A DNA stretch of 36,708 nucleotides from a virus. Positions 2,429-35,011 of the stretch are shown piece after piece. Each line of letters begins with the position of its first letter. Position 1 is the stretch's first letter. A model generated the notes under the pieces. The model saw only the letters and a program-made list of their open reading frames with translations. It searched no databases and was not told the DNA's origin. Both the position numbers and the translations under genes were made by a program. The stretch covers positions 1 through 36,708 of IMG/VR virus record IMGVR_UViG_3300050821_003280; one strand, 5' to 3'.

Positions 2429-2747
2429 GTTCCACTCCTCCATCGGACTGTGACCTAACGCGAATCTTGGCTGCGTGCCAGCGATCCCACTGTGCATCGG
2501 TGAACCTCGTATCTGGGTCACGTATCAGCCCGGTCATATCTAGTCCTGCCCATCGGTGATCCTCGATCCACTCGGGGCTGACAATCTTCAAATCCTCCCG
2601 GCCAAGATGTCGCGCGAGGGCTTTGGGGTAATCGAGGTGATGATTGACCCAGACGAATACCGCGCCCTTGGGAGCCGCCTGCATGGCCCGCGTTGTCTTG
2701 CCAGAGCCCCTGTCTGGACCCCCCAGCCCGACAATTTTAATTCCCAT
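2412..2747 (-). CDS. Small P-loop NTPase-like protein
   Basis: This 111-residue protein begins with a beta strand and a Walker A loop: IKIVGLGGPDRGSGKTTRAM, with the GxxxxGKT core at residues 10-18. The following strand AVFVWVNHHLDYPKALAR has the spacing expected of a compact P-loop fold. No convincing Walker B with consecutive acidic residues is visible; SPEWIEDHRWAGLDMTGL is the nearest candidate. Small stand-alone P-loop proteins of this type are common in phage early regions, with no agreed role. The start is supported by a GGGGGAG ribosome binding site 3 nt before the ATG. It overlaps its neighbours by 11 and 17 nt. Confidence 0.7.
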   Translation of the reverse strand: MGIKIVGLGGPDRGSGKTTRAMQAAPKGAVFVWVNHHLDYPKALARHLGREDLKIVSPEWIEDHRWAGLDMTGLIRDPDTRFTDAQWDRWHAAKIRVRSQSDGGVEHDRSK

Positions 2748-2964
2748 GTTCTCCCCCTGTATTACGTTCTGTCAGAATATCCAGATCAGCCACCCAAGTT
2801 TTGCGACCTTCCGCAACGGCAAAAGGTCTCTCGCGTAACAACAGCGCCTCTAGCGCGTCGATGTGGCACATCCAGCAACGTATGCCAGCTTTTGTCAGCC
2901 GATCAAACTTGGCGAAATATTCCAATGAGGTCTGCCCGGTTGGATGCACGTGAACGCAACTCAT
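2737..2964 (-). CDS. Hypothetical protein with CxxC motif, 75 residues
   Basis: The ATG at 2964 overlaps the TGA of the preceding gene (ATGA). The product is MSCVHVHPTGQTSLEYFAKF followed by DRLTKAGIRCWMCHIDALEA, so one Cys sits near the N-terminus and a CWMC pair near residues 30-33 next to His residues. One metal site is possible but incomplete. A mixed alpha/beta remainder (VAEGRKTWVADLDILTERN) ends the protein. It overlaps the P-loop gene by 11 nt. No family recognised. Confidence 0.55.
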   Translation of the reverse strand: MSCVHVHPTGQTSLEYFAKFDRLTKAGIRCWMCHIDALEALLLRERPFAVAEGRKTWVADLDILTERNTGGEHGN

Positions 2965-3242
2965 TTTTCATTCGCCTCTGGATTGGCTTGTGACGGTAGC
3001 GGCGCTATGACTATCACCTGGCCATTAAGCGTCTGGTAGGTGTGCGTGATCTGCATCTGGTAGTCCAAGCCCGGATAACGCATCAGGATCGCGCTAACGG
3101 TGAACTTGGAGCGGCGCATCTCTTCCATGGTGATCCTCATGCGCTCGACTCGCTGAAGCATGTCCTGACGCCACTGCTCAAGCTCAAAGACCTCTCGCTT
3201 GAGGGCTTGGATCTGATCGACTGCACCGCCTGGTACGCTCAT
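2961..3242 (-). CDS. Coiled-coil hypothetical protein, 93 residues
   Basis: The start was placed at the ATG at 3242, which overlaps the upstream stop as ATGA. The open frame continues 63 nt upstream but only across the neighbour. After MSVPGGAVDQ a long helix (IQALKREVFELEQWRQDMLQ onward to about residue 50) has clear heptad spacing. The C-terminal third is beta-rich (YQMQITHTYQTLNGQVIVIA) and Pro-ended. It overlaps the next gene by 4 nt. It may be an oligomeric regulator or inhibitor, but nothing in the sequence decides this. Confidence 0.6.
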   Translation of the reverse strand: MSVPGGAVDQIQALKREVFELEQWRQDMLQRVERMRITMEEMRRSKFTVSAILMRYPGLDYQMQITHTYQTLNGQVIVIAPLPSQANPEANEK

Positions 3243-3520
3243 TCGCCACCTTTGGATTGAGGAGATGTCAAAGCATCGAACTGCTCTTCGCCGCACTGCG
3301 TACACCTAGCAATAGGGCGCCGCGAGACAAGTGAGCGGTTGAGTTCTACCGCGTAATAAATTGGCAGCCAAACGTGGCCGCATCGCTTTGCAATGCTACC
3401 CAAATACCGCTGTATGGGTGCCGCTTCGTACTTGACCGTATTGAGGGCGTCTACTTTGCGCTTGTCGTAGGTCTCGAACAGAGCTTCCCCGGTCGCCTTA
3501 TTGCGGACAACCCAGCTCAT
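3239..3520 (-). CDS. Conserved-type phage protein with C-terminal CxxC knuckle
   Basis: This 93-residue protein opens MSWVVRNKATGEALFETYDK, a beta-hairpin-like start that I recognise as recurring in small phage proteins of unknown function. A helix (KVDALNTVKYEAAPIQRYL) follows, then a Cys at 47 and an RCTQCGEE knuckle at 73-76. With H49 this could form a single zinc site. It couples to both neighbours by ATGA overlaps. The N-terminal part resembles the usual short form of the family; the zinc-ribbon-like tail looks like an added piece. Function unknown. Confidence 0.65.
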   Translation of the reverse strand: MSWVVRNKATGEALFETYDKRKVDALNTVKYEAAPIQRYLGSIAKRCGHVWLPIYYAVELNRSLVSRRPIARCTQCGEEQFDALTSPQSKGGE

Positions 3521-19476: not shown

Positions 19477-20394
19477 GTGTCAACCAACATCGTTACGTTC
19501 TACGTCCAGCAATTCGCCAAACAGCTGAACGAGCTCGTACAACAGAAGACCTCTCGCCTGCGCAAGTGGGCCACCGAAGACAAGTACGTCGGCCAGGCCG
19601 CAAGCCCCGTCGAGCAGGTGGGTCCGGTCGCGATGCAGCCCATCACGCAGCGCTATGGCCCGATGCAGCGCGTCGATGCGCCCACGGCGCGGCGCTGGGT
19701 ATTCCCCAGCGACTACGATCTGCCGCAGCTGTTCGATAACTTCGACAAGCTGCGCCTGCAGATCGACCCCAAGGGCAAATTCACGAACAACGCGAAGAAT
19801 GCTGCGAATCGTCAATATGACGACTTGCTCATTGCCGCGTTGGGTGGCGTCGCTCAGACCGGCGTCGCCGGCGCAACCGCCACGGTCCTCCCGGCCGCGA
19901 ACATCATCTCGGTCAACCAGGGTGCAACCGCGCCGACCGGGCTCACCGTGGCGAAGCTGCGCCAGGCGAAGATGCTCGCGATGCAGAACGAGGCCTATTC
20001 GGATGAGGAAGGCGATGCGGGCGATCCGAACAATGACTTGGTGTGCGTCGCCGGCGCTCGCCAGCTCGACAACTTGATGGCAGAAGCGCAGGTCATCAGC
20101 CGCGACTTCAACGATCAGCCGGTGCTCGAGGAAGGGCGCATCAAGCGCTTCTTGGGCGTCACGTTTGTCCGCAGCGAGCGCTTGCTCACGGGTACGGACG
20201 ATCAGGCCGGTACCTCGGTCAAGGTGCACTTGTGGCAGCGCGATGGCCTGCACTTGGGTATCTGGAACGACATCACCACGAACATCTCGCAGCGTCACGA
20301 TCTGCAGAGCGAGCCGTGGCAGTGCTACGTTTTCATGACCGGCGGCGGGACTCGTTTGGAAGAGAACCGCGTCTATCAGATTTGGGCCCGATAA
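19477..20394 (+). CDS. Major capsid protein
   Basis: This 305-residue protein starts at GTG 19477 after CGGAG. It has the features of the Phage_capsid_2-type (HK97-fold) capsids of BPP-1-like podoviruses: an N-terminal helix (TFYVQQFAKQLNELVQQKTS) followed by RLRKWATEDKYVGQ, VGPVAMQPITQRYGPMQRVD, RRWVFPSDYDLPQLFDNFDK, then the loop NNAKNAANRQYDDLLIAALG, AKLRQAKMLAMQNEAYSDEE and LVCVAGARQLDNLMAEAQVI, and a beta-rich end (VKVHLWQRDGLHLGIWNDIT, YQIWAR). It follows scaffold and precedes the decoration protein. No N-terminal prodomain or protease is encoded nearby, consistent with scaffold-dependent assembly without a maturation protease. Confidence 0.88.
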   Translation: MSTNIVTFYVQQFAKQLNELVQQKTSRLRKWATEDKYVGQAASPVEQVGPVAMQPITQRYGPMQRVDAPTARRWVFPSDYDLPQLFDNFDKLRLQIDPKGKFTNNAKNAANRQYDDLLIAALGGVAQTGVAGATATVLPAANIISVNQGATAPTGLTVAKLRQAKMLAMQNEAYSDEEGDAGDPNNDLVCVAGARQLDNLMAEAQVISRDFNDQPVLEEGRIKRFLGVTFVRSERLLTGTDDQAGTSVKVHLWQRDGLHLGIWNDITTNISQRHDLQSEPWQCYVFMTGGGTRLEENRVYQIWAR

Positions 20395-20445: not shown

Positions 20446-21138
20446 ATGGCAGTCGTCAATACCAAAGGCACCCTGGTCGCGAACTACGACGCGACTCCGC
20501 GCGTGCTCTCTAGCGGATACCAGGCGGGCGCAAATGACACGGTAGGCGTCGCGACGGTAGCGGCTGTCTCCACCGACTCAATCGGTTCCACCTATCGCTT
20601 CGGCTTCATCTCTTCGGGCGTGCGCATCGAAGATATGCAGATGATGAACGATGCCACCACGGCGGGCGTGTGGCAGCTCGGCATCTACCTAAACACGCAG
20701 CAGTCCCTGAATATGGCAGGCCCGTCGGCCTCCGTGCAGGGATGGAGCTCAACCGTAGCCTATGTCCCGGGCAACGTCGTGCAGTTCAACGGTGTCATCT
20801 ACTATTGCACCACGGGCAACACCAACAGCCAGCCGCCTTCCGGCAACTGGACCACGGGCGGCTCGGTGGTCGCGGCGCCTGGCGCGGTTGCCATCCCAAA
20901 CAACAACCTGATTTTCGGGCAGGCGATTTCCACCGCGGCGGCAAAGAGTGTTTGGACCAGCGTGTACACCCCGCAGATCGGCGCGGTGGCCTTCACGGCT
21001 TCCAATGTCGGGCTTCGCGTGTGGGAGCTCGCAGGCTTCAGCGTTGATCCCGAGTACATGTTCCATCTGGTGCTCACGGCGACGACGGCGCCAACGGCGA
21101 ATGGCAACATCTCGCTGCAGTACACCTTCGTCCGGTAA
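20446..21138 (+). CDS. Capsid decoration (cement) protein with inserted carbohydrate-binding-like module
   Basis: ATG 20446 has ACAGGAG upstream. The 230-residue product follows capsid directly and looks like a jelly-roll cement protein: TLVANYDATPRVLSSGYQAG, STYRFGFISSGVRIEDMQMM and GVWQLGIYLN, resuming at PNNNLIFGQAISTAAAKSVW, RVWELAGFSVDPEYMFHLVL. Between about residues 96 and 139 lies WSSTVAYVPGNVVQFNGVIY then YCTTGNTNSQPPSGNWTTGG, with the W...Y-x2-G-x-V...G-x2-Y-Y...PP...W pattern of family 5/12 carbohydrate-binding modules. The insert sits in a surface loop position. Fold and glycan binding are inferred from pattern. Confidence 0.7.
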   Translation: MAVVNTKGTLVANYDATPRVLSSGYQAGANDTVGVATVAAVSTDSIGSTYRFGFISSGVRIEDMQMMNDATTAGVWQLGIYLNTQQSLNMAGPSASVQGWSSTVAYVPGNVVQFNGVIYYCTTGNTNSQPPSGNWTTGGSVVAAPGAVAIPNNNLIFGQAISTAAAKSVWTSVYTPQIGAVAFTASNVGLRVWELAGFSVDPEYMFHLVLTATTAPTANGNISLQYTFVR

Positions 21139-21186: not shown

Positions 21187-21420
21187 ATGGCAACGGTTCG
21201 CTTTTCAATCAACCCGCAGGACCCGATCGAATCCATCGTGATCGCAGTCGGTGCGGCCACGGTCACCAAGTCGATCGAGCTCACCGTGGACCAAGCGGCC
21301 CTCGTCACTGACTCCTCGAACCCGACGAACCCGCGCGCGATCAAGCGGGTCGAGGTGGTCATTGCGCTGCAAAACATCATTGCCGCCCTACAGCGCGACA
21401 ACACCACGTTGAACGAATAG
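21187..21420 (+). CDS. Small virion-region protein, 77 residues
   Basis: ATG 21187 after GGAGTGG. MATVRFSINPQDPIESIVIA then VGAATVTKSIELTVDQAALV form a beta-rich N-terminal half, and IKRVEVVIALQNIIAALQRD a C-terminal helix. It lies between the decoration protein and tail genes, and proteins of this size are common there in podoviruses. Probably structural; role unknown. Confidence 0.65.
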   Translation: MATVRFSINPQDPIESIVIAVGAATVTKSIELTVDQAALVTDSSNPTNPRAIKRVEVVIALQNIIAALQRDNTTLNE

Positions 21421-21426
21421 CGCCAG

Positions 21427-21810
21427 ATGGCCGGCTACGTCACCGCATCGCCCGTCCATCCGGTCCGCCTCGTCGGCACCGGCGCCGTGCAGTGCAAGGC
21501 CGGCATCTTGGGCGGCACGGTCGCCGGCGTTGCGCTCGATACCGAGCTCTATGGCGTCTATATCCAGTTGAACGCGGTGACCGCTGGCACCGTGACGATC
21601 GCCGGCATGGCTGACTCCTCCGGCACCGCGCAGAACATTCTGCTATCGGGTCAAATTGCGACCGATACCGCGATCCTCTTCCCGGTGCCGTGGCTCAACT
21701 ACGCCGGCGGCTTTGTCTTCACCGCCTCCATCGCGAATATCGTCTGGGTGCTCACTCGACCCTACATCGGCCAGGAAGCCCCGAACGCCGGCGGCTTCGA
21801 GTTGCGGTAA
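21427..21810 (+). CDS. Probable minor virion protein, 127 residues
   Basis: The product is beta-rich and Gly/Ala-rich: MAGYVTASPVHPVRLVGTGA, VQCKAGILGGTVAGVALDTE, LYGVYIQLNAVTAGTVTIAG, ending WVLTRPYIGQEAPNAGGFEL. It has no signal or membrane helix. Composition and place between decoration and tail tubular genes suggest an exposed head or neck protein. No family recognised. Confidence 0.6.
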   Translation: MAGYVTASPVHPVRLVGTGAVQCKAGILGGTVAGVALDTELYGVYIQLNAVTAGTVTIAGMADSSGTAQNILLSGQIATDTAILFPVPWLNYAGGFVFTASIANIVWVLTRPYIGQEAPNAGGFELR

Positions 21811-22464: not shown

Positions 22465-25452
22465 GTGGCACGCGCATCCCCGGCGATAGCGGCTTTTAAC
22501 GCCGGCGAATTCTCACCGCAAATGGAGGGGCGTGTCGATACTGAAAAGTATCCGATCGCGACCCACATTCAGCAAAACTTCATCGCGCTAAAACAAGGCT
22601 GCTCGACCTACCGGCCTGGGACCGCGTACGTGCAGCCGGTCAAAGTCTCGGCGCAGCGCGCCTGGCTGGTGCGCTTCGAGTTCTCCTTCACGCAGGCCTT
22701 CGTGCTCGAGTTCGGCGGCGGCTATGTGCGCTTCTACACGAATCACGGGCCGCTGCTCAGTCAAGGCAATGCTGCGTACAACGGCGCGACCGCCTATGTG
22801 ATCGCCAACCAGGTGGTTCAGGGCGGAATCACCTACTACTGCATCGCGCCGACCACGGGCAACGCTCCACCCAATGCCACCTTCTGGTATCCGATGACGA
22901 CCTACACGGGGCCGGGCGGTGGCGCGATCTACGAGATCCCGAGCCCGTACGCTTCCGCTGATCTGACCAATGCAGCGGGCTTCTTCAACTTGGACATTGT
23001 GCAGCAAGGCGATGTGCTCTATGTCATGGGCGGCAGCGCCACCGGCGGCCCTGCGGGAATTGGCTACCCACCGTACACGCTGACTCGCTTCGCGAACGCT
23101 CCGCCCAATTGGCAGTTCTCGCAGTACTCACCCGTCGATGGACCCTATGCGGATTTCTCGCCGCTCACACCCGGCGCCGAAATTGCGCTCGCGGTCTCAG
23201 CGGTCATGGGCAACGCCATCACCATCACCGCCTACGGTGGCCCCGTGTTCGCTGCGACCGACGTCGGACGCCTCGTGCGCATCGGCAGCCAGTACTTCAA
23301 CAACACCCCATGGGCGACCGCCACCGCGGTCGCTGCGGGCGCGACGTTCGTCAATAACGGCAACAACTACCTTGCGCTCAATGCTGCCACCACAGGCGGC
23401 TCGCCTCCGGTTCACACTTCTGGCGCGGCTTTGGATGGGCCTACCGGCGTGCGCTGGCTCTACACCGATTCGGCCTATGGCGTCGCGCAGATCACTGCCT
23501 TTGTCTCTGCGACCCAAGTCACGGCCAAGGTGCTCTCGCGCTTCCCGGCGAACTGTGTCGGTACCACCGCGGCGATCACCAACATCACACAGGCGAATCC
23601 AGCAGTAGTCACCGCGGCAAATGCCTTCACCGCAGGCGAGGCGGTCTTCATCACGGGCGTCAATGGCATGACGCAGATCAACGGCAACCCCTACACGAAT
23701 CAAACCGCGGCCGGCGCCACCGTCACTTTAGCCGGCATCGACTCAACGGGGTACAGCGCGTACATCTCCGGCGGCACCATCATCGGCAATGCTAGCATCG
23801 AGTGGCAGCTAGGCGCATGGAGCAACACAACCGAGTGGCCGCGGGCGGGCGCTTTCTTCAAGGAGCGCTTCTTCCTTGCCGGCAAGCTAAAAGTGTGGGG
23901 CTCGGTGCCTGGCCTCTACACGAGCCACGCGCCAGACTTCTTCGGCCAGCAGACCCCGGACTCTGCGACCAACAACATCGTCTCGGGGGCGGATGCTTCC
24001 AATATCTGCTGGATGTCGGCCAACATCATTTTGATTATCGGCACCGAGGGCGGGGAGTACGGGCTTGATGCTGCGAATATATCGAGCCCATTGGGCCCGC
24101 AGAACATCGAGATACTGCCGCAATCGCAGTGGCGCGTGCGCGATGTGCATCCGGTAAAGATCGGCACCTCGCTCCTCTACCTGCAGCGCGCGGGGCGAAA
24201 GGTTTTCGCCGCTGATTACAATTTCTATTTGAACCGCTACGACTCGACCGATCAAAACAAGTTCGCCTATCACATTACGATCGGGGCGATCCAAGGCATG
24301 ACCTACCAGGCCGAGCCTTGGAGTCTCTTATGGTCCTGGCGCGCCGATGGCACCTTCCTCTCGTATACCTTCAACCGCGAAGACAACGTGACCGCCTGGT
24401 GCCGGCACAACATGGGCAACGGCGGCAACGTCGAATCCATGGCGATCATCCCCTCACCTGACGGGGTGCGCGATGAATTTTGGGCTATCGTCAATCGCAC
24501 CATAAATGGCGTGGTGATCCGCACCGTCGAGTATTCGGTGAAGCCATTCGAGGGCCCGCAGGCCGGCAATCCCGGCGATGCGCAAGCCTCGGCGTGGTAT
24601 GTAGATTGTGGGGTGCAGGCAATCATTCCACCGGGCTTCCCGATCACCAATGTCACTAGCGCCGGCAACATCCACGGTGGCAACACAACCTATTCGTGTG
24701 TGAATAACTTCACCGCCGGGCAGGCGGTCTTTGTCAGCGGGGTGCAGTACTCTGGCTCCGGCACCTTTAACCCAAACGTGCAGGGAGCGATCATCACGGC
24801 GGCTAGTCCGACGAGTTTCCAGATCGCCGCCTTCGCCTTCGGGCAGACCTTCCAATATCTCTCGGGCGGTGCCGCCTCCGTCGGCGGTAGCTCCTCTCAG
24901 ACCATCTCAGGTCTTCCGCCCGTGATGTGGAACCAGACCGTCTCCATCCTCGCCGATGGCGGCGTGCAGCCGCAGCAGGTGGTCAGCAACACCGGCAGCA
25001 TCACGTTGGCCTCGACCTTCAACGTCGTCACGATCGGCTTCCCCTACCAAGGTAACCTGGTGCCGATGCGCCCGGAGGGTGGCGCGGATGTTGGCACCGC
25101 GCAGGGCAAGATCAAGCAGGGCGATAATCTAGTGATTCGCCTGATCGACTCGAGCGGCGGTGTCATCGGGCAACTCTCGACCATAAACGCGACCACGCAG
25201 CTGTATCAAAATCCCTTAGGGCTATTGACGCAGGCGCCGCAGAACATGGAAGCGATTCGCTACAACGATACGAGCACCCCGCTCGATTCCCCACCGCCGA
25301 TTCAATCGGGCGACTACGCCATCAGCTTCCCGCTCGCGCAAGTCTCCGAGCAGGATCAGAGTGACCTCTACATCCTGGTGCAGCAGAACGATCCGCTACC
25401 ATTCACGTGCGCCGGTCTCTTCCCATCGTACAAGGTGGAGGAGTTTCAATAA
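22465..25452 (+). CDS. Tail tubular protein B (nozzle), with added carbohydrate-binding-like modules
   Basis: GTG 22465 directly follows the previous stop. The 995-residue product opens ASPAIAAFNAGEFSPQMEGR, then DTEKYPIATHIQQNFIALKQ and GCSTYRPGTAYVQPVK, the typical start of podoviral nozzle proteins. The central propeller-like core has WPRAGAFFKERFFLAGKLKV, GSVPGLYTSHAPDFF and GTSLLYLQRAGRKVFAADYN. Inserted segments are YNGATAYVIANQVVQGGITY followed by YC...PP...W (about 103-144) and a second module ending in HTSGAALDGPTGVRWLYTDS (about 282-335), both with aromatic spacing of small carbohydrate-binding modules. The hexameric nozzle forms the distal tail and carries the tailspikes. Confidence 0.85.
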   Translation: MARASPAIAAFNAGEFSPQMEGRVDTEKYPIATHIQQNFIALKQGCSTYRPGTAYVQPVKVSAQRAWLVRFEFSFTQAFVLEFGGGYVRFYTNHGPLLSQGNAAYNGATAYVIANQVVQGGITYYCIAPTTGNAPPNATFWYPMTTYTGPGGGAIYEIPSPYASADLTNAAGFFNLDIVQQGDVLYVMGGSATGGPAGIGYPPYTLTRFANAPPNWQFSQYSPVDGPYADFSPLTPGAEIALAVSAVMGNAITITAYGGPVFAATDVGRLVRIGSQYFNNTPWATATAVAAGATFVNNGNNYLALNAATTGGSPPVHTSGAALDGPTGVRWLYTDSAYGVAQITAFVSATQVTAKVLSRFPANCVGTTAAITNITQANPAVVTAANAFTAGEAVFITGVNGMTQINGNPYTNQTAAGATVTLAGIDSTGYSAYISGGTIIGNASIEWQLGAWSNTTEWPRAGAFFKERFFLAGKLKVWGSVPGLYTSHAPDFFGQQTPDSATNNIVSGADASNICWMSANIILIIGTEGGEYGLDAANISSPLGPQNIEILPQSQWRVRDVHPVKIGTSLLYLQRAGRKVFAADYNFYLNRYDSTDQNKFAYHITIGAIQGMTYQAEPWSLLWSWRADGTFLSYTFNREDNVTAWCRHNMGNGGNVESMAIIPSPDGVRDEFWAIVNRTINGVVIRTVEYSVKPFEGPQAGNPGDAQASAWYVDCGVQAIIPPGFPITNVTSAGNIHGGNTTYSCVNNFTAGQAVFVSGVQYSGSGTFNPNVQGAIITAASPTSFQIAAFAFGQTFQYLSGGAASVGGSSSQTISGLPPVMWNQTVSILADGGVQPQQVVSNTGSITLASTFNVVTIGFPYQGNLVPMRPEGGADVGTAQGKIKQGDNLVIRLIDSSGGVIGQLSTINATTQLYQNPLGLLTQAPQNMEAIRYNDTSTPLDSPPPIQSGDYAISFPLAQVSEQDQSDLYILVQQNDPLPFTCAGLFPSYKVEEFQ

Positions 25453-26658: not shown

Positions 26659-28967
26659 TGGCGCGCGGCATCCAAGGCGAGGAGAGCTATACCCCGCAGG
26701 TGCAGCCTGAGGATCTGCCGCGCAAGATCATCCCGCGCATGGAGGCTGGCCCCATCGGGCCCGCGATAGCGCAGGCGGCGGAAGCTGCTGGGCAGAAGAT
26801 GCAATCGGATTCCGCGACCTGGGCAGGGGATCAGCTCGCCGCGTTTCGCACCAAGGCGGTCAATGATCTGACCACGATGAAGGAAGCGGCTCCGGCCGGA
26901 GATCCCGGGGACTTCACGCCGAAGTATCTCGCTCAATTCGACAAGAGCGCGCAGGCCGTGACCAACGTGCCCTTCACGCAAACCAACCCCATCGCTCGAG
27001 CGATGATCGAGCGCGGTGTGGGGCAGCTGCGAGACACGCTCGCGCAGCACACGATGGAGTGGGAGGCGACGCAACGTAAGGCCTACCAGCTCGACTCCGT
27101 GCAGCAGAACTTGGATGGCCAGCTCCCGCTCGTGCGCTCGCACCCCGAGCTCACCGATCAGATCGGTTCGACCCTGAATGATCAAATTCAATCGCTCCAT
27201 GCCGAGCCTGCTGACAAGCTAAAGATGCTGCGCTCGATGGACATCAAACTCACCCGCGAGGCTGCACTCGGCAAGGTCGACCAAAACCCTGGCGGTGTGT
27301 ACCAGCAGCTGCAGATGGACAAGCCGACCGATCCGATCCTCTCGCGATTGCAGGACCCGGCGACGCGCCAGGAGGTGCTCGAGGCGGCAAGCCACGGACT
27401 CGTCAAGCAGATCGCCGGCGGTGCTCTCGATCAGTACCGAAACGCTGGACCCGATGCCGGCCGCGCCGCCTACGCTGCGGTCGATAATCTCACCGTCGAT
27501 AAGGACCCGGTCAAAAACGATGCCTTCAAGGATCAGGTGCGCGCGACGATCCAGAAAGAGCGCGGCGAGCTGATCGCGCAGAATCAGCAAAAGTATGCCC
27601 CGCAGGTCATGGCGCTCGAGGAGTCATTGAAGGGCGGCCAACCGGACGCGAATCGGCGCGGCATGATTTGGGGCGGCTACCGCCAGAACTGGCTGACCCC
27701 GGAGCAAGCGGGCTCGATGTTGGGCGAGGATGATCGCATCAACTTAAAAGGCGCCGAGGACGGTGCAGGGCGCCAGTTGGTCCAAGACGCCTATGACGGC
27801 AAGTACTTCCTCGATCCAAAAAACAAAGACCAAAAAATCGACGCTAACAATTGGTTTCTCGACAAAGTGAATCAGTCGCAAGTGCCGACCGGCTCCGATG
27901 CCTACATCAATCTCGGTGCCGAATTCGCGCACCGCACCGGCATGGTGCCGGAGCCAGTCATGGATTGGTCGCGCGCCGTGATGGTCGCATCGAAGGACCC
28001 GCAGCAAGTCTATCAAGCCGCGGTCGCGGTCGATCGGATGCGGGCCGCCAGTCCACGCGGCTTTGAATACGCGGACGATGATCACAAGCTCGCGAGTATC
28101 TCAGACGGCGTGCTGCGCCTGACCAAGGCCGGCATGGCAGTGCCGGAGGCGGTCGCCACGGCGCGGGAGAATTACGCACGGGGCGAGGATCAGCGCAAGC
28201 TCATGGATGAGCAATGGAAAACGCAGCGCCCCTTCGGCAAGGATGATACGAACCTCGACGGGGTGCTCTCGAAGCAGGTGGCCGATGATCCGGCGCTCAC
28301 CAAGGCCGGATGGTTGTGGGGTCGCAATCCCCTGCCGCATCCCCCGGCGATGCAGGCGGACTATGAGGAGCTCACGCGCTCGAAGTTCAATCACAACGGT
28401 GGCAACTTACCTCAAGCCGAAGCGGACGCAGCGCGGGACATCGGCACCAAGTGGGGCATCACGCAAATGAACGGGCAGCCCGAGCTCGTGAAATATCCGC
28501 CCGAGCGGATGTTCCGCGCTCCCGATGGCGGCCCTGGCTTGACCGCGCAAGATATCCGCACCGACATCGAGCAACACGCGGCGTCCGGGGACTTCAAGGA
28601 TTCCTTCGTGCACTGGAATAACGAGACGCACAAAATGGAGCCCTTCAAACCCGACGCGACCAACATCAAATTGGTCTCAGTGCCGGGCGTCACCGATAAC
28701 TCTGGCGGCAAGCGCTGGGGCGTGATGTACCAGGATGCGGACCTGCAGGCCCCCGAAGCGCTCTACGATAAAAACCATAATCCTCTGATGTACGAGTTGC
28801 CGGTCAAACAGCAGGACTATGTGAAGATGAAGACGCAGGCCTTGAGCGATGCGAAGTCTCGCGCCTTGAAGGAGCTCACCGATCGCAACGCGAGCGAGGA
28901 AGCGGCGCGCAAGGCGCTCGCGCAGGATCAGAGCTTTGGCATCCCGACCTACCAGGCGGACCGCTAA
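26658..28967 (+). CDS. Internal virion protein C (T7 gp15-like)
   Basis: ATG 26658 overlaps the previous stop (TAATG). The 769-residue protein is mostly helical and Gln/Ala/Asp-rich, starting MARGIQGEESYTPQVQPEDL, with helices such as SATWAGDQLAAFRTKAVNDL and RGVGQLRDTLAQHTMEWEAT. Size, composition and order between gp14-like and gp16-like genes identify it as the periplasmic-tunnel ejection protein. No lysozyme or transglycosylase domain is visible. The ATG of the next gene overlaps its stop (TAATG). Confidence 0.75.
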   Translation: MARGIQGEESYTPQVQPEDLPRKIIPRMEAGPIGPAIAQAAEAAGQKMQSDSATWAGDQLAAFRTKAVNDLTTMKEAAPAGDPGDFTPKYLAQFDKSAQAVTNVPFTQTNPIARAMIERGVGQLRDTLAQHTMEWEATQRKAYQLDSVQQNLDGQLPLVRSHPELTDQIGSTLNDQIQSLHAEPADKLKMLRSMDIKLTREAALGKVDQNPGGVYQQLQMDKPTDPILSRLQDPATRQEVLEAASHGLVKQIAGGALDQYRNAGPDAGRAAYAAVDNLTVDKDPVKNDAFKDQVRATIQKERGELIAQNQQKYAPQVMALEESLKGGQPDANRRGMIWGGYRQNWLTPEQAGSMLGEDDRINLKGAEDGAGRQLVQDAYDGKYFLDPKNKDQKIDANNWFLDKVNQSQVPTGSDAYINLGAEFAHRTGMVPEPVMDWSRAVMVASKDPQQVYQAAVAVDRMRAASPRGFEYADDDHKLASISDGVLRLTKAGMAVPEAVATARENYARGEDQRKLMDEQWKTQRPFGKDDTNLDGVLSKQVADDPALTKAGWLWGRNPLPHPPAMQADYEELTRSKFNHNGGNLPQAEADAARDIGTKWGITQMNGQPELVKYPPERMFRAPDGGPGLTAQDIRTDIEQHAASGDFKDSFVHWNNETHKMEPFKPDATNIKLVSVPGVTDNSGGKRWGVMYQDADLQAPEALYDKNHNPLMYELPVKQQDYVKMKTQALSDAKSRALKELTDRNASEEAARKALAQDQSFGIPTYQADR

Positions 28968-31900
28968 TGCCGTTCGTGCAATCCCCTGATCCCACCAAAC
29001 TCGACACGAGCGAGCTCGAGCAAGGTGCGCCACCGCAATCCCTGCCGGCGTATCAGGACGATACGGGTACGGGCGCCAATGGCCCGAAGTACACCACGGG
29101 CGAATTCTGGTCAGGCGTCGCGCGGCGAACGATCCCGGGCCAAGCGATCACGGATATCCGCGCAGCGAGGGCCGCAGGCTACAACCCCTTGACCGCCGGC
29201 GAATCGGTCGAGGACCCGGCAACCGCGATCCCCGAGGATATGAAGCCCTTCGCCGATAAGTACGTCGGGCTCTACACCAAGGAGCAGATCGCATACCGCA
29301 CCTTTCAGCTGCGCCAATCGCATTGGGACGAGCTGCACGGCGGCCAATCGAAGTGGTCGATCCCGGCGAACCTAGCCGCGGGCCTGGTTGACCCGATCGG
29401 GGTGGGCTCGATGTTCATCCCGGTGGCGGGCGAGACCCGCCTCGCCAATGCGATCCGCATGGCAGCGGTCGGCGCCGGCGTATCCGCCACCGATGAGGCG
29501 GTGATGTCGCAGTTGGATCCCAATTGGACCTTTGCAAATTCCATGGTGGATGTCGGCGCAGGCACCTTGGTGTCAGGTATCTTAGGGGCGATCATTCGCC
29601 CCCACGCGAGCAGCTCGGAATTGGGCAAGCTGCGCGCCATGCTCCAGGAGGACCTCCATGCCGCACCGCCCGAGCCTCCAAGAGCTCAAAGCGGCGATTC
29701 TGCGGCGAACATCGCGGCCGATCTTCGAGCGGCGGTGGAATCTCATGGTCAAGGCCTTGAGCGCGCTGCCGAAGAGGCTCGGACGGCCAGCGCCAGCATC
29801 GACCCGGCTGCTGCAGCGCAGCGACTCCAAACCGCACAGGAAGCCTTAAGCGCGGTTCCACGTGAAGCAGCCCCGGAAGCCCAAGAAGCCGCTCTTAAGG
29901 CCAAGGCCGAGGAGCTAGGCACTGGCGAGGGCGTTCCTGAGCGATTGGCCAAAGCGTACGGGGACAAGGTTCCTGAGGTGCTCCAAGGGCGTGCGGCAAG
30001 CCTGGTAGCGGCCCAGAAGGCCTCCCGCGAGGCGATTGAGCGGGAGGTGTCCTCCGCGCAGGAGGACCTAAACCGCCTCGAGCAGGCCCGCAGCGCACAA
30101 GAATCCCTGCAGGCGTTTCACGAGACAGAGAAGCCACCGGCGGAGTATACTGGGCCCCATGGCGCTGAACCCCTACCATCCGGGATTCGACCCGGCGGTG
30201 AGCCGGGCGTACGACCCGAACTATCAGCCGAGCAAGGCCCTCTCGGAGCTGGTGGCGGACAACCCGGCGAATCAATTCCTCGCAGACCGACTGGCCGAGG
30301 AGCACGCGGCGGTGAAGACCGAGGCAGCGGAGCAAGCCAACGCGAGCCCGGGAAGAAAGGCGCAGCCGACGCCTTAGGCCGATCGCGCCAGAACATGGCG
30401 CACACGAAAGAGTTTCGCGCCATTGAGCGCGAAGGCATCGCCGCCATGCGAAGCCAAACCGAACGCGCCGAAGCGGTGCGCGCCGGCATCCAGACCGTTG
30501 AAGCACACGTAGCATCCCAGCTCGAGGCAAGCGGCCGTCTTGAGCCTAAGCAAATCGGCGCGAACTCCAAACTCATCGGCGCCTTCTACGGCACTCAGGC
30601 GCAGCGGCTAGGGCTGACCGCGGATGAGCTCTTTGCGCGTCACCCGCTGAAAGTCACGGGCGAGGCGAAGCGCGGAGGCTTCCTGCAGCGCATCGAGGAG
30701 CCCGGCATCGAGGTGGGCGAGCGTGGCATGACCCCGGAGGAGGAGAAACTCTTCGCGGGCCTGCGGGCGAGCACGCCTGGCAAGGAGCCGCTCACCGTGT
30801 ACCGCGGCGGGCGCTCGTCCGGGCCATTGACTGCCGAGCACTTCAAGCCCGAGAGCTTCGGCAAGGCGACCAATCGCCCGAGCGCAGGCCTCGGTGTCTT
30901 CTTCACCAATCGTCCCGCAGAAGCGGGACGCTACGGCAAGGTGTCGACGCACCACCTCGACATGAAGCAGCCGCTGCACATTCGCAGTGAAGACCTACCA
31001 GGATTCGACTCGACCGAAGCGGCAACCGCCTGGGCGCGGGCGCAAGAAGCGAAAGGCTACGATGGCCTCATCATCGACGCGAGCCACGTCGGCGGTCAGA
31101 CCTGGTATGTGCCGTTCAAACTAGAACAGGTGAAGCACGCTGGCGCCGGTGTCGTGAAGACCGAACCGGGCCGCTTCGCGCAAGAGAATCGCGGCAGCTA
31201 CGATCCGGCGAGTCACACCATCGCATTGACCGACTCGGCGAACGCTTCGACCTTCCTGCACGAGTCCGGGCATCACTTCCTCGATCTGATGACGCAGCTC
31301 GCGGAGCACCCCGACGCGCCCCTCTCTATGCGCGAGGATGTGCAGAGCCTGATGGATTGGTTCAAGGTGAAGGACTTAAACGAGTGGAAGGACATGGGCC
31401 TCGAGGGGCAGCGCGACCTTCACGAGAAATTCGCGCAAGGATTCGAGCAGTACCTGCGCGATGGGGTGGCGCCGAGCTCACGCCTGCAGGGGCTCTTCGA
31501 TCAGTTCCGGCAGTGGCTCTCTCAGGTCTATAAATCCGTCGTGAATCAGTTCGGTGATCGCTTGCCGCAGGATGTTCGTAGTGTGATGGACCGTCTGCTC
31601 GCAACCGACGAGGAAGCAACGCAGGCAACCGCCGAGCGCGTCGCCGCGGCGCCCAACCCCACCTTCGCGCGAATCGCCGGCGATGCACCCTTACGCGATG
31701 AGCTTCGCCACATGGCGGCCAATGAGCTCGGCTGGGACACCGTGGGCGGGAAGATGATCCGTAAGGAAGTACTCGCAGGCGGTCGCGGCAATGAATTCGA
31801 CATATCTCGCACCGCCTGGATACCGCGCGCCGAGTGGTGGCCCGGGCGCCCGGGCGGGTATAGTGCCGAGGAGTCGGCGCGTATCGTGGATAAGGCACTC

Positions 31901-34900
31901 GCCGGCGAGAAGTTAGGACCGAAGCAGCAGCAGCTGCTCGAGTACATGACCGAGGTTGCCGATCAGCGTGTATCGAGTGAGCCGTTCCTGCCGCACGCGG
32001 ATGAACTGAGCGCGCACGAGCTCGAGCACTCACCGGCAAATGCGTTTGAATCGGCGATGGTTGCGCGCCTCTCGATGATTGATGAGGAGGCGGTCGAGAA
32101 TCTCGCTCGACATTTTGAGGACGATGACGCTGGCTTCATGGCCAAGGTCAAGGAGCTGCTCGATGCCCATGACGAAGACGCAAAACTTGCTCGCGGTGTC
32201 GCGCAAGATCAAGAGCCGCTTGGGCTCGCTCCCGACCGGGGAGCCGCCGGAGGATCTGCTGAATCGGCAAGTGCTCGAGGGGAAACCCCCGGCCGAGCCG
32301 CAGCAGCCGAAGGCGAACGCCCCGCCACCCGTTCCGCCCCTGCCACCGACCTCTTCGGCGAGCGCCCCACCGGAGCCCAAGCCCTCGCGGATGAGCAGCG
32401 CCGGCGCGACCTAAAGCGCAACAGCGGCCAGGAATCGGCCGAAACCGGCAACCCCGGCGATCTATTCAGCCAGGCGCGCCAGCAGGCGGATCTTACCGAC
32501 ATGCTCGCGAAGCTGCCGCCCGAAGCCAGGGCACCCTTCGAGGCGCGCATCGAGGCGCTCGAGGAGCCAGGGCACGCCCCGATCTATGCCGCGCCGGAGG
32601 GTGGGCAGAGCATGGGAGCTGCGGAAACTGGCAGGACGCGCGAGCAGCAGCTTAAGGACTACTCACTCGCTCGAGGTGGGCGGGTCTTGGGCAAAGCGCT
32701 CGGCTGGTTCGCCCCCGGGAGTCGCGCACTCTCAAGTCCCGCGCTCGCCATGCGCAAGACCATGGCGCGCTTGATCGAAACCCCGGAGATGCTGAACATG
32801 AACGTGCCGAGCCCCGAGCGGCCCTTTGGGCTGCCGACCCCGATCGCGGTGCAGACGATCTTGAAGAAGTGGGAGGGCAACTGGGCCAAGGCATTCGCCG
32901 CGCGTGATCAGATCTTTAGGGATTACCGCGCCCGGCCGCAGGCGGAGGTCGAGGGCCCAAAGCTCGGCAAGCACGAGTTCAACGAACAGGTCTCGATGGC
33001 CATGCGTCGCAATGACACCTGGTACATCAAGGAAGTCGAGGATGCGGCGAAGGCAACGCGCGCCATCGTGTTCGACCCATTGAAGGAGGAAGCGAAGAAA
33101 CTGGGCTTATTGCCGCAGGAAGACCCCACGCTCGGCGGTACCGCTGAGAGCTATCTGATGCGCCAATACGATCGGGCGAAGATCCAGAAGGATCAAGTCG
33201 GCTGGCATCAAACGCTCGTGGACGGATTCGTTAAGCAAGGCGTGGAGGCAACCGAGGCCTCGGAGATTGCGCACGCGGTGACGCGCAACATCTTAGGCAC
33301 CGAGTTAGGGCTGCTCGATACGAACAAGAGCGCGTTCCACAACGTGCCTCAGTCCGGGCGCTTGAAGGAGCGCACGCTGAAACTCCCGGACTTAGACCTA
33401 GAGAAATACCTGACCAATGATATCGACACCCTCTCGCACAGCTACCTAAAGAGCTTGGCGCCGCAGGTGGAGATGATGAAGATGTTCCGGGACGATTTAC
33501 GAAACGACGGGCTCGATGAGAAGGCTCAAGGCTTTCGCGTCTTCACTCCTGACCCGCAGGCCGAGGGCAATTCTCTGAGCGGCCGGCGCAACCTCACCGG
33601 TCCCGCGAAGGACATCACCGACGAATATTCGATTCTCAAGCAGCGAGCTCTGGCCGCGGGCGATAACGCGCAGGCCAATGCTCTCGACAAGCGATTAAAA
33701 TCGGACCTGCGGGATCTGGCGGCCGTGCGCGATAGGCTCTATGGCATCTACGGAGCTCCGGGCGATTCCTCGAGCTGGCTGCAGCGCGCCGGCCGCGTCA
33801 TCCGTTCGGTGAATGCGCTGCGCTTGTTAGGTACCGCAACCTGGTCGCACGTACCGGATCTTGCCAACATCGTGATGAAACGCGGGCTCCCGCAGACCAT
33901 GGCGGTCGCCGCCAAACTTTCGAGCTCGCTCGAGGCATTGAATCTAAACCGCGAGCAGATGCACCGCATCGGCACCGTGATGGACATGATCCACAACACT
34001 ACGGCCGCGGCCTTAGGCGAGTTCGGTGTCGAGTCAAGCTATGCGCTGCAGAAGACGCTAAACCGCGCGACCCGAGCCTTTACGATCGCAACCTTAGAGA
34101 CCCCTTGGATCGCGACCTGCAAGGCGCTCGCCGGCGCAGCCGCGCACGATGAGGTGCTCGAAGCGGCCGGGCGCGCCTCGCGCTTTGCGAAGCGCGTGGG
34201 CCCGGACCTCTCCACGAATGAGCGCATTCGCTTCAATCAGATGGGCTTAGATCAGGGGATGCTCGAGCGCATCGCCGAGCAATACGGCGAGTACGGCAAA
34301 TCAGTGAACGGTGTGCGCTTCGGACTCTCGGACACATGGCACGATCAAGGCGCGGCGCAAGCGATCGACGCGGTCACAACCAACGCCGCGGAGGGCTCGA
34401 CCCTCTCTCCAGGCGCCGGCGACACACCCCTGTGGACCTCGAACGAAGTTGGCAAGGCCATCTTCCAGTTCAAGACCTTCGGCGCGGTGGCCATCCGGCG
34501 CGTGACGATCCCGCTCGCGCAGGGACTTGCGCACGCGGACCTGCGAAGTGCCCAAGGCTTGGCGACGCTGATCGCCGCCGGCGCCGTGACCTACACGATG
34601 AAGCAGCTGCTCTCAGGGCAACCGATGGAGAAAGATCCCGGCCGCTACGCCCTCGAGGTCCTCGACAAATCGAACCTGCTGGGCTGGACGGGTGAGTACT
34701 TCTATCCGAGCCTCTGGCAGTTTGGCATGGGCAACTTCTCCCGCTGGGGCGATCGGCAGACCTGGGAGACTTTGGGCGGGCCGGTGGCCGGTACCGCGGT
34801 CGATGCGTGGGACCTTCGGCTCCCGGCGAAATTGATCGGCACAGCTCGAGGGCAAGGTCCGCAATTAAAGCGCTCGGATATACACCGCATCAGACGCATG

Positions 34901-35011
34901 TTGCCTGGCAATCAAGTCTGGTACCTTCGCCGCGCGGTAAATGCCCTTGAGGGCCACGTTGGGGATGCTATGGGACTGCCGCCGGCAGATGTCCCGGGGA
35001 GTACAGAATGA
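28967..35011 (+). CDS. Giant ejection / polyvalent protein with ART-like and HEXXH peptidase domains (T7 gp16 position)
   Basis: 2014 residues, placed as gp16 of T7. Domains in order: about 1-220, with two hydrophobic segments (ANLAAGLVDPIGVGSMFIPV, MVDVGAGTLVSGILGAII); 240-390 Ala/Glu coiled coil; 390-475 Gly/Pro linker; helical 477-570; an ADP-ribosyltransferase-like domain 609-725 (LTVYRGG, SAGLGVFFTNRP, GYDGLIIDASH); a metallopeptidase with HESGH at 765-769 and a possible third ligand in HEKFAQGFEQYL (819-830); a domain to about 1060; linker with DLFGE (1128); then a long helical C-terminus (RRMLPGNQVWYLRRAV near the end) resembling polyvalent-associated domain LPD38. Ejected with the DNA, such proteins are thought to act on host targets. 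Three out-of-frame ORFs overlie its linker regions. Confidence 0.82.
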   Translation: MPFVQSPDPTKLDTSELEQGAPPQSLPAYQDDTGTGANGPKYTTGEFWSGVARRTIPGQAITDIRAARAAGYNPLTAGESVEDPATAIPEDMKPFADKYVGLYTKEQIAYRTFQLRQSHWDELHGGQSKWSIPANLAAGLVDPIGVGSMFIPVAGETRLANAIRMAAVGAGVSATDEAVMSQLDPNWTFANSMVDVGAGTLVSGILGAIIRPHASSSELGKLRAMLQEDLHAAPPEPPRAQSGDSAANIAADLRAAVESHGQGLERAAEEARTASASIDPAAAAQRLQTAQEALSAVPREAAPEAQEAALKAKAEELGTGEGVPERLAKAYGDKVPEVLQGRAASLVAAQKASREAIEREVSSAQEDLNRLEQARSAQESLQAFHETEKPPAEYTGPHGAEPLPSGIRPGGEPGVRPELSAEQGPLGAGGGQPGESIPRRPTGRGARGGEDRGSGASQREPGKKGAADALGRSRQNMAHTKEFRAIEREGIAAMRSQTERAEAVRAGIQTVEAHVASQLEASGRLEPKQIGANSKLIGAFYGTQAQRLGLTADELFARHPLKVTGEAKRGGFLQRIEEPGIEVGERGMTPEEEKLFAGLRASTPGKEPLTVYRGGRSSGPLTAEHFKPESFGKATNRPSAGLGVFFTNRPAEAGRYGKVSTHHLDMKQPLHIRSEDLPGFDSTEAATAWARAQEAKGYDGLIIDASHVGGQTWYVPFKLEQVKHAGAGVVKTEPGRFAQENRGSYDPASHTIALTDSANASTFLHESGHHFLDLMTQLAEHPDAPLSMREDVQSLMDWFKVKDLNEWKDMGLEGQRDLHEKFAQGFEQYLRDGVAPSSRLQGLFDQFRQWLSQVYKSVVNQFGDRLPQDVRSVMDRLLATDEEATQATAERVAAAPNPTFARIAGDAPLRDELRHMAANELGWDTVGGKMIRKEVLAGGRGNEFDISRTAWIPRAEWWPGRPGGYSAEESARIVDKALAGEKLGPKQQQLLEYMTEVADQRVSSEPFLPHADELSAHELEHSPANAFESAMVARLSMIDEEAVENLARHFEDDDAGFMAKVKELLDAHDEDAKLARGVAQDQEPLGLAPDRGAAGGSAESASARGETPGRAAAAEGERPATRSAPATDLFGERPTGAQALADEQRRRDLKRNSGQESAETGNPGDLFSQARQQADLTDMLAKLPPEARAPFEARIEALEEPGHAPIYAAPEGGQSMGAAETGRTREQQLKDYSLARGGRVLGKALGWFAPGSRALSSPALAMRKTMARLIETPEMLNMNVPSPERPFGLPTPIAVQTILKKWEGNWAKAFAARDQIFRDYRARPQAEVEGPKLGKHEFNEQVSMAMRRNDTWYIKEVEDAAKATRAIVFDPLKEEAKKLGLLPQEDPTLGGTAESYLMRQYDRAKIQKDQVGWHQTLVDGFVKQGVEATEASEIAHAVTRNILGTELGLLDTNKSAFHNVPQSGRLKERTLKLPDLDLEKYLTNDIDTLSHSYLKSLAPQVEMMKMFRDDLRNDGLDEKAQGFRVFTPDPQAEGNSLSGRRNLTGPAKDITDEYSILKQRALAAGDNAQANALDKRLKSDLRDLAAVRDRLYGIYGAPGDSSSWLQRAGRVIRSVNALRLLGTATWSHVPDLANIVMKRGLPQTMAVAAKLSSSLEALNLNREQMHRIGTVMDMIHNTTAAALGEFGVESSYALQKTLNRATRAFTIATLETPWIATCKALAGAAAHDEVLEAAGRASRFAKRVGPDLSTNERIRFNQMGLDQGMLERIAEQYGEYGKSVNGVRFGLSDTWHDQGAAQAIDAVTTNAAEGSTLSPGAGDTPLWTSNEVGKAIFQFKTFGAVAIRRVTIPLAQGLAHADLRSAQGLATLIAAGAVTYTMKQLLSGQPMEKDPGRYALEVLDKSNLLGWTGEYFYPSLWQFGMGNFSRWGDRQTWETLGGPVAGTAVDAWDLRLPAKLIGTARGQGPQLKRSDIHRIRRMLPGNQVWYLRRAVNALEGHVGDAMGLPPADVPGSTE
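29658..29849 (+). CDS. Nested +1-frame ORF 1 in the giant ejection gene (candidate)
   Basis: A 63-residue ORF starts at ATG 29658 with AGGAGG (29646-29651) 6 nt upstream. The product is very basic: MPHRPSLQELKAAILRRTSR, then PIFERRWNLMVKALSALPKR and LGRPAPASTRLLQRSDSK. Third-position GC by eye count is about 81% here against about 56% for the giant frame over the same DNA. It could be a basic nucleic-acid-binding or toxin-like peptide. Chance is not excluded. Confidence 0.35.
   Translation: MPHRPSLQELKAAILRRTSRPIFERRWNLMVKALSALPKRLGRPAPASTRLLQRSDSKPHRKP
30159..30377 (+). CDS. Nested +1-frame ORF 2 in the giant ejection gene (candidate)
   Basis: A 72-residue ORF starts at ATG 30159: MALNPYHPGFDPAVSRAYDP, then NYQPSKALSELVADNPANQF and LADRLAEEHAAVKTEAAEQA. 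It reads as a well-mixed native protein with a C-terminal helix. The giant frame over the same DNA is a Gly/Pro/Arg-rich linker with rare codons (third-position GC about 49% against 83% for the nested frame). A CGGAG lies 16 nt upstream, too far to be a good ribosome binding site, so initiation is the weak point. Confidence 0.4.
   Translation: MALNPYHPGFDPAVSRAYDPNYQPSKALSELVADNPANQFLADRLAEEHAAVKTEAAEQANASPGRKAQPTP
32163..32414 (+). CDS. Nested +1-frame ORF 3 in the giant ejection gene (candidate)
   Basis: An 83-residue ORF at ATG 32163 (or ATG 32169) with AAGGAG 7 nt upstream. The N-terminal half is a basic helix and loop (MTKTQNLLAVSRKIKSRLGS, LPTGEPPEDLLNRQVLEG); the second half is Pro-rich (KANAPPPVPPLPPTSSASAP). 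Third-position GC is about 88% against about 58% for the giant frame on the same DNA. It has the best combination of start signal and codon choice among the three. Confidence 0.45.
   Translation: MPMTKTQNLLAVSRKIKSRLGSLPTGEPPEDLLNRQVLEGKPPAEPQQPKANAPPPVPPLPPTSSASAPPEPKPSRMSSAGAT

Follow-up and report, generated by a model that had tools for sequence, protein, structure and literature searches.

Most of the known glycan-binding domains of phage heads have an Ig-like fold. In mycobacteriophage Douge, Ig-like domains of the major capsid protein bind glycans according to the available text of PMC13033339, and the available parts of PMC7602432 and PMC13320782 propose the same for other phages. Here we describe a domain of another kind, a fold familiar from chitinases and built into the cement protein of a phage head. 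It resembles the Ig-like capsid domains of T4 Hoc and Douge in its proposed working, namely as many weak glycan-binding domains on the head (compare the available text of PMC13033339 and PMC7602432). However, the fold is unrelated, and the binding measured there is a proposal here.

The fold in question is CBM5/12 (PF02839), represented by Streptomyces griseus chitinase C (ChiC; 1wvv/2d49) and chitinase A1 (1ed7). The accessible text of PMC8449059 ascribes chitin binding by CBM5 domains to two adjacent aromatics (Y-W or W-W) plus one more aromatic residue. In CjCBM5, these are the pair Y282-W283 and Y296; Y265 and W299 are aromatics that are conserved as well but lie in the hydrophobic core. 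As the same text gives a Kd near 2 mM for the binding of soluble chitohexaose by classical CBM5s, any binding by a capsid would need multivalency. CBM5/12-like modules are also present on virion tail proteins, such as the solved tail fibres of A-1(L) (8kec), Milano (8fqc), and phage 7-7-1 (9rkv), and the nozzle proteins described below. These share the fold of the cement domain but differ in their tail position, and the cement version has a shorter end (PSGNW) and its own invariant residues S128, S132, and N134. Among the open-access papers searched, none named a capsid decoration protein with a CBM5/12 domain.

The closest described cement proteins are those of the cyanophage Pam1, the Ralstonia phage GP4, and the Helicobacter phages KHP30/40. 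According to the available text of the GP4 paper (PMC9698820), the GP4 cement is trimeric and occupies the quasi-three-fold axes, and the termini of related cement proteins lie at the bottom of the trimer.

Genome Setting of the Cement Gene

The window, i.e., the whole stretch of DNA analysed, comprises 36,708 bases of the record IMGVR_UViG_3300050821_003280 and carries the gene set of a T7-like podovirus. Judged by these genes, its source phage is a short-tailed T7-like podovirus related to HTVC010P. The capsid protein matched 38 phage records, each at less than 60% identity, and 22 of them were pelagiphages of the HTVC010P kind. The features used below are as follows:

Within the window, terminase (family match)
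Within the window, head-tail connector (PF12236, E 1.8e-106)
19477..20394, + strand, major capsid protein of the HTVC010P type, 305 aa (PF19821 Phage_capsid_2, E 3.4e-61; PHROG major head protein, E 9.3e-63)
20446..21138, + strand, capsid cement (decoration) protein, 230 aa, ATG start, predicted beta-sandwich core with an inserted domain
20731..20871, + strand, inserted domain, residues 96-142 of the cement protein, predicted CBM5/12 fold (1wvv_B match), between core strands 75-82 and 158-162
20743..20850, + strand, conserved module proper, W100 to W135 (PF02839 match at 20743-20856; invariant residues)
After the cement gene, tail protein (PHROG 394)
22465..25452, + strand, tail nozzle of the T7 gp12 (tail tubular B) type, 995 aa (phmmer 8ck1_A "Tail Nozzle", E 4.4e-45; PHROG tail protein, E 4.5e-136)
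22777..22887, + strand, second copy of the module, nozzle residues 105-141 (weak PF02839 match at 22774-22869, 10.1 bits; translation; model)
Listed after the tail nozzle, internal virion proteins (family matches)

A cement or decoration gene usually, though not obligatorily, lies beside the major capsid gene. The gene studied here adjoins it, starting 51 bases past the major capsid stop codon, and in HTVC010P and MW202898 a gene for a protein of approximately 165 residues occupies the same site directly after the capsid gene. In the relatives L010 and L013, the cement gene sits one gene further downstream, past an extra gene for a 157-residue protein (L010 3759-4232, L013 2238-2711), which may be a second decoration protein. 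In the window, proteins of 77 and 127 aa (21187-21420 and 21427-21810) are encoded between the cement and tail genes and gave no convincing family match. The window also encodes a DnaJ-domain protein (864-1454, - strand, E 2e-18) and a 2014-residue protein (28967-35011), the residues 607-725 of which match ART-PolyVal (ADP-ribosyltransferase of polyvalent proteins) with an E of 1.4e-6, just below the cut-off.

A Cement Core with a Separate CBM5/12-Fold Domain

The 230-aa cement protein was modelled with AlphaFold2 from 50 sequences (mean pLDDT 89.5), and the model contained eight core strands and three strands of the insert. Comparison of this model with solved structures confirmed the original prediction of a jelly-roll-like cement protein, as the core beta-sandwich aligned with the Pam1 cement 7eel_H (Z 11.9, 2.5 A over 113 residues), the GP4 cement 8h89_J (Z 10.6), and the KHP40 cement 7dou_4 (Z 9.1). 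Foldseek likewise placed the Pam1 cement first (E 6.8e-4). The solved Pam1, GP4, and KHP chains differ in having 124-155 residues and no counterpart of the module within the alignment ranges. By analogy with the GP4 cement, we infer that the cement protein of the window is trimeric. At the level of sequence, neither the cement protein (E <= 0.01) nor the insert (E <= 10) had any match among 50,697 phage records. The searches of the PDB with whole-protein alignments gave xylanase noise only (alignment A1) and a weak match to the Pam1 cement with an E of 2.5 (alignment A2).

The residues 96-142 formed a domain of their own in the model, apart from the core sandwich, with strands at 111-114, 117-121, and 135-140. 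This segment alone had the small three-stranded CBM5 fold and aligned with the CBM5 of S. griseus chitinase C (1wvv_B) with a Z of 8.2, 1.2 A over 47 residues, and 30% identity. Alignments with Serratia ChiB and Vibrio deacetylases took in neighbouring residues as well. Confidence in the model was lowest in the linker block 91-100 (pLDDT 74). Since the linker before the module is also variable in length, it fits a tethered domain.

The Pfam profile CBM_5_12 (PF02839) matched residues 100-129 of the window protein with an E of 6.3e-5, its 23.4 bits lying below the curated cut-off of 26.2. In the genome-frame search, the same site scored 25.7 bits, or 26.3 bits together with its neighbours, which is barely above the cut-off. 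Some homologues exceeded it, e.g., with 30.8 bits in the L004 record. Among the 25 homologues scanned, 16 had a PF02839 match with an E <= 0.1, the best being 4.7e-7; this figure equals the number of insert-bearing rows, the members being given as a count without names. The best PDB sequence match of the insert profile was the chitinase A1 domain 1ed7 (E 0.0016). As the Pfam matches and the independent structure comparison agree, the resemblance to the CBM5/12 fold is not due to chance.

Presence and Absence of the Insert among Relatives

A search with the major capsid protein gave 32 loci, 28 of which had a readable cement gene, while L002, L016, L027, and L031 end before it. The insert was present in 16 of the 28 relatives and absent from 12, which kept the whole core. 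The insert-bearing homologues have 227-235 aa and the close insert-free ones mostly 186 aa, the core being continuous on both sides of one gap. Thus, a segment of about 44 residues does interrupt an otherwise continuous cement protein. It neither folds into the core in the model nor occurs in all homologues, and its aromatics are conserved where it occurs, so neither observation that would have spoken against the original prediction was made.

Beyond the 28 loci, L109 has the insert and L049 lacks it. The wider searches for related loci by short peptide patterns gave at least 80 loci plus six, 49 of which were translated; given this way of searching, the counts of insert-bearing and insert-free relatives are not a census. 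The more distant translated relatives (130-175 residues, a few of them cut by a contig end or being repeats) all lack the insert. The two members are nearly or fully the same in each of the pairs L005/L006, L022/L023, and L029/L033. Of these, L006 was kept outside the trees and the counts of 17 rows, and L023 and L033 were kept outside the trees.

The capsid proteins of L009 and L013 are 88% and 85% identical to that of the window, yet their cement proteins have no insert, which argues that the insert is not in contact with the capsid protein. Taken as a whole, the computations show a dispensable, conserved domain that is predicted to fold independently.

The mean pN/pS was 0.32 for the insert and 0.36 and 0.43 for the core (136 pairs, with high synonymous differences). 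By this measure, the insert is under purifying selection as strong as that on the core. The G+C and third-position G+C contents in the window are 0.62/0.85 for the insert and 0.60/0.78 and 0.62/0.82 for the core; being alike, they rule out a recent import of the insert from foreign DNA.

Probable Exchange of the Cement Gene between Phages

For the tree of the cement core, the insert columns were removed. The insert-bearing proteins formed one clade with a support of 95/91 in 25 rows, or 79/84 in 28 rows with the distant ones kept. In the tree of the capsid proteins, the insert-bearing phages were interleaved with the insert-free ones, with five changes. The capsid-protein tree rejected a single insert-bearing clade (AU p 0.020 in 25 rows; 0.037 in 22 rows without the three distant ones), and the cement data rejected a nine-member clade of the capsid tree (AU p 0.021). 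The support of many inner branches was low. Because the insert marks one clade of the cement tree yet is scattered over the capsid tree, the simplest account is that the insert arose once and that phages have since exchanged the cement gene.

The Same Module in the Tail Nozzle

A second sequence, found in the nozzle, is plainly the same module as the cement insert when the two translations are compared. The model of the N-terminal region of the nozzle had a mean pLDDT of 74.7, with 93-96 over the model residues 101-140. Around the module it aligned with 8ck1_A (Z 10.2), and the module itself aligned with the CBM5 of chitinase C, 1wvv_B (Z 7.4, 1.7 A over 48 residues). The slot is bordered by a strand ending in FYTNHGP and by the motif IYEIPSPY that follows. 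It holds the module in all 14 insert-bearing phages with a readable nozzle and in seven of nine insert-free phages (L012, L021, L023, L026, L030, L049, and L052; absent from L013 and L029). In other relatives, the slot is empty or holds an E1_FCCH-like domain, as in HTVC010P (E 7.2e-13). Some nozzles have a second PF02839 match further along.

The cement modules are 77% identical to one another and 44% identical to the nozzle modules. The identity between cement and nozzle modules was 0.43 within a phage and 0.44 between phages (the second module of L130 being outside this comparison), which rules out recent copying between nozzle and cement inside one phage. The tree of 37 module columns resolves little; in it, the nozzle module of L130 groups with the cement modules. 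As the use of the module in nozzles is wider, the cement protein probably acquired it from this pool of phage modules.

Aromatic Residues and the Chitin-Binding Face

Thirteen residues were invariant in all 17 inserts, i.e., W100, Y106, G109, V111, V112, Y119, T126, S128, P130, P131, S132, N134, and W135. The original prediction took the aromatic spacing as the mark of a carbohydrate-binding module. The spacing is indeed conserved, since W100, Y106, Y119, and W135 are kept in 17/17 inserts, and aromatics otherwise occur in the span from W100 to W135 just at 114 (F, Y, or L) and as Y120 (15/17). The part of the claim that pointed to binding did not hold in the same way. Y106 and W135 correspond in all 17 inserts to the core aromatics Y265 and W299 of CjCBM5, as these are given in the available text of PMC8449059, this correspondence resting on residue order and on position in the profile rather than on a superposition of coordinates. 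The surface aromatics Y282-W283 and Y296 described there have no counterpart in any of the 17, and no F, W, or Y was present at residues 121-134, the region where CBM5s carry their binding aromatics according to the same text. The chitinase domain 2rts, as aligned by phmmer, has its Y-W pair opposite a two-residue gap and its third Y opposite a serine. The four conserved aromatics are thus mainly a signature of the fold, not of a binding face.

The nozzle modules gave a similar picture, as 23 of 24 had no aromatic in the columns equivalent to the CBM5 binding positions. Because the surface aromatics are missing from all 17 cement inserts, we class the insert as a domain of the CBM5/12 fold rather than a chitin-binding CBM5. 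It is like the CBM5/12 domains of enzymes in its fold (1.2 A over 47 residues), Pfam profile, and core-aromatic positions, but differs from them in sitting inside a viral capsid protein and in having neither the tandem Y/W-W pair nor the third binding aromatic described in the available text of PMC8449059. With positions 121-134 free of F, W, and Y in all 17 inserts, canonical chitin binding is unlikely.

Proposed Adhesion and Its Alternatives

We lean towards the reading that the insert is a virion-display cassette of the CBM5/12 fold which gives the capsid a weak, multivalent adhesion, with a polysaccharide as the putative ligand. This reading draws on the predicted folds of core and insert, the presence and absence of the insert among relatives, the two trees, the selection on the insert, and the related modules in nozzles and solved tail fibres. 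The original prediction also named mucus as a possible target, but nothing in the sequence speaks for or against mucin binding. A loop of the cement protein carries the small self-contained domain and would show it on the head, one per cement subunit; assuming a T=7 capsid whose three-fold and quasi-three-fold positions are all occupied by trimers, this would make approximately 420 copies. Acting together, the many weak sites would tether the virion reversibly to a polysaccharide of the host cell or its surroundings. Crystalline chitin is probably not the ligand, since chitin-binding CBM5s rely on an aromatic platform that the insert lacks. With the cement allele moving between phages by recombination, a phage could acquire or lose the trait while its capsid stays almost the same. 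The domain likely faces outwards, as both alleles work with closely related capsid proteins. Against outward display, simple strand counting puts the insert loop and both termini at one end of the sandwich, and in related cement proteins the termini are described at the trimer bottom (available text of PMC9698820). The slow evolution of the module, equal to that of the core, is unlike that of a receptor-binding domain in an arms race and counts against adhesion.

The main rival to the adhesion reading is a structural role, in which the module is a spacer or stabiliser of the CBM5/12 fold that acts as a lid on the trimer or a link between adjacent trimers, without any glycan binding. We consider this possible, though less likely. 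It would agree with the lack of canonical binding aromatics in 17/17 cement inserts and 23/24 nozzle modules and with a conservation of the module equal to that of the core; polar residues and prolines account for many of the invariant positions (T126, S128, PPS at 130-132, N134) and could serve protein contacts. However, insert-free alleles serve closely related capsid proteins, so the insert is dispensable for assembly. In addition, a nozzle slot that may be empty or hold the unrelated E1_FCCH-like domain fits an accessory surface role better. The module might otherwise be a docking site for another virion protein, such as a head fibre or an internal partner, and its presence in both the cement and the nozzle of one phage looks as if both bound one partner. 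Yet cement and nozzle modules resemble each other no more within a phage than between phages and give no sign of co-evolution with a shared partner, which leaves docking very unlikely.

A classical chitin-binding module would let virions stick to chitin, i.e., to fungal walls or arthropod debris, and await chitin-degrading hosts there. The nearest structures are indeed the CBM5/CBM12 domains of chitinases and chito-oligosaccharide deacetylases, and 1ed7 from chitinase A1 is the best PDB sequence match of the insert profile; but the tandem pair and the third aromatic of CBM5s, as given in the available text of PMC8449059, are missing, their positions in 2rts meeting a gap and a serine. We therefore hold this explanation to be very unlikely. 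It is hardly credible that the segment is no separate domain but an extended core loop, even though its C-terminal strand 135-140 continues towards the core. The insert-free homologues retain the whole core, the model matches the Pam1 and GP4 cements around the insert, and residues 96-142 match CBM5 independently; these homologues and the separate structure alignments rule out the insert as a part of the core.

Returning to the adhesion reading, we tentatively extend it to an exchangeable cassette of the CBM5/12 fold common to the nozzle slot and the cement protein. In this possible scheme, allele swaps would switch an adhesive coat of the whole head on or off over a near-constant capsid, and a new sugar-binding surface would replace the chitin platform. 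Close relatives with the same gene minus the domain provide a natural control, and the two natural alleles make the long-standing idea of adhesion domains on phage heads directly testable. The nozzle slot, vacant in some relatives and filled in others by either of two different domains, shows how virion surfaces get re-equipped.

The nozzle of the window (22465-25452) is a mosaic, having the module at residues 105-141, a cyanophage tailspike-like region at 279-364 (7eea, E 2.7e-5), and an E1_FCCH-like region at approximately 378-439. In L130, the nozzle protein encoded at 2692-3456 has two tandem CBM5/12-like modules (39.4 bits over two stretches).
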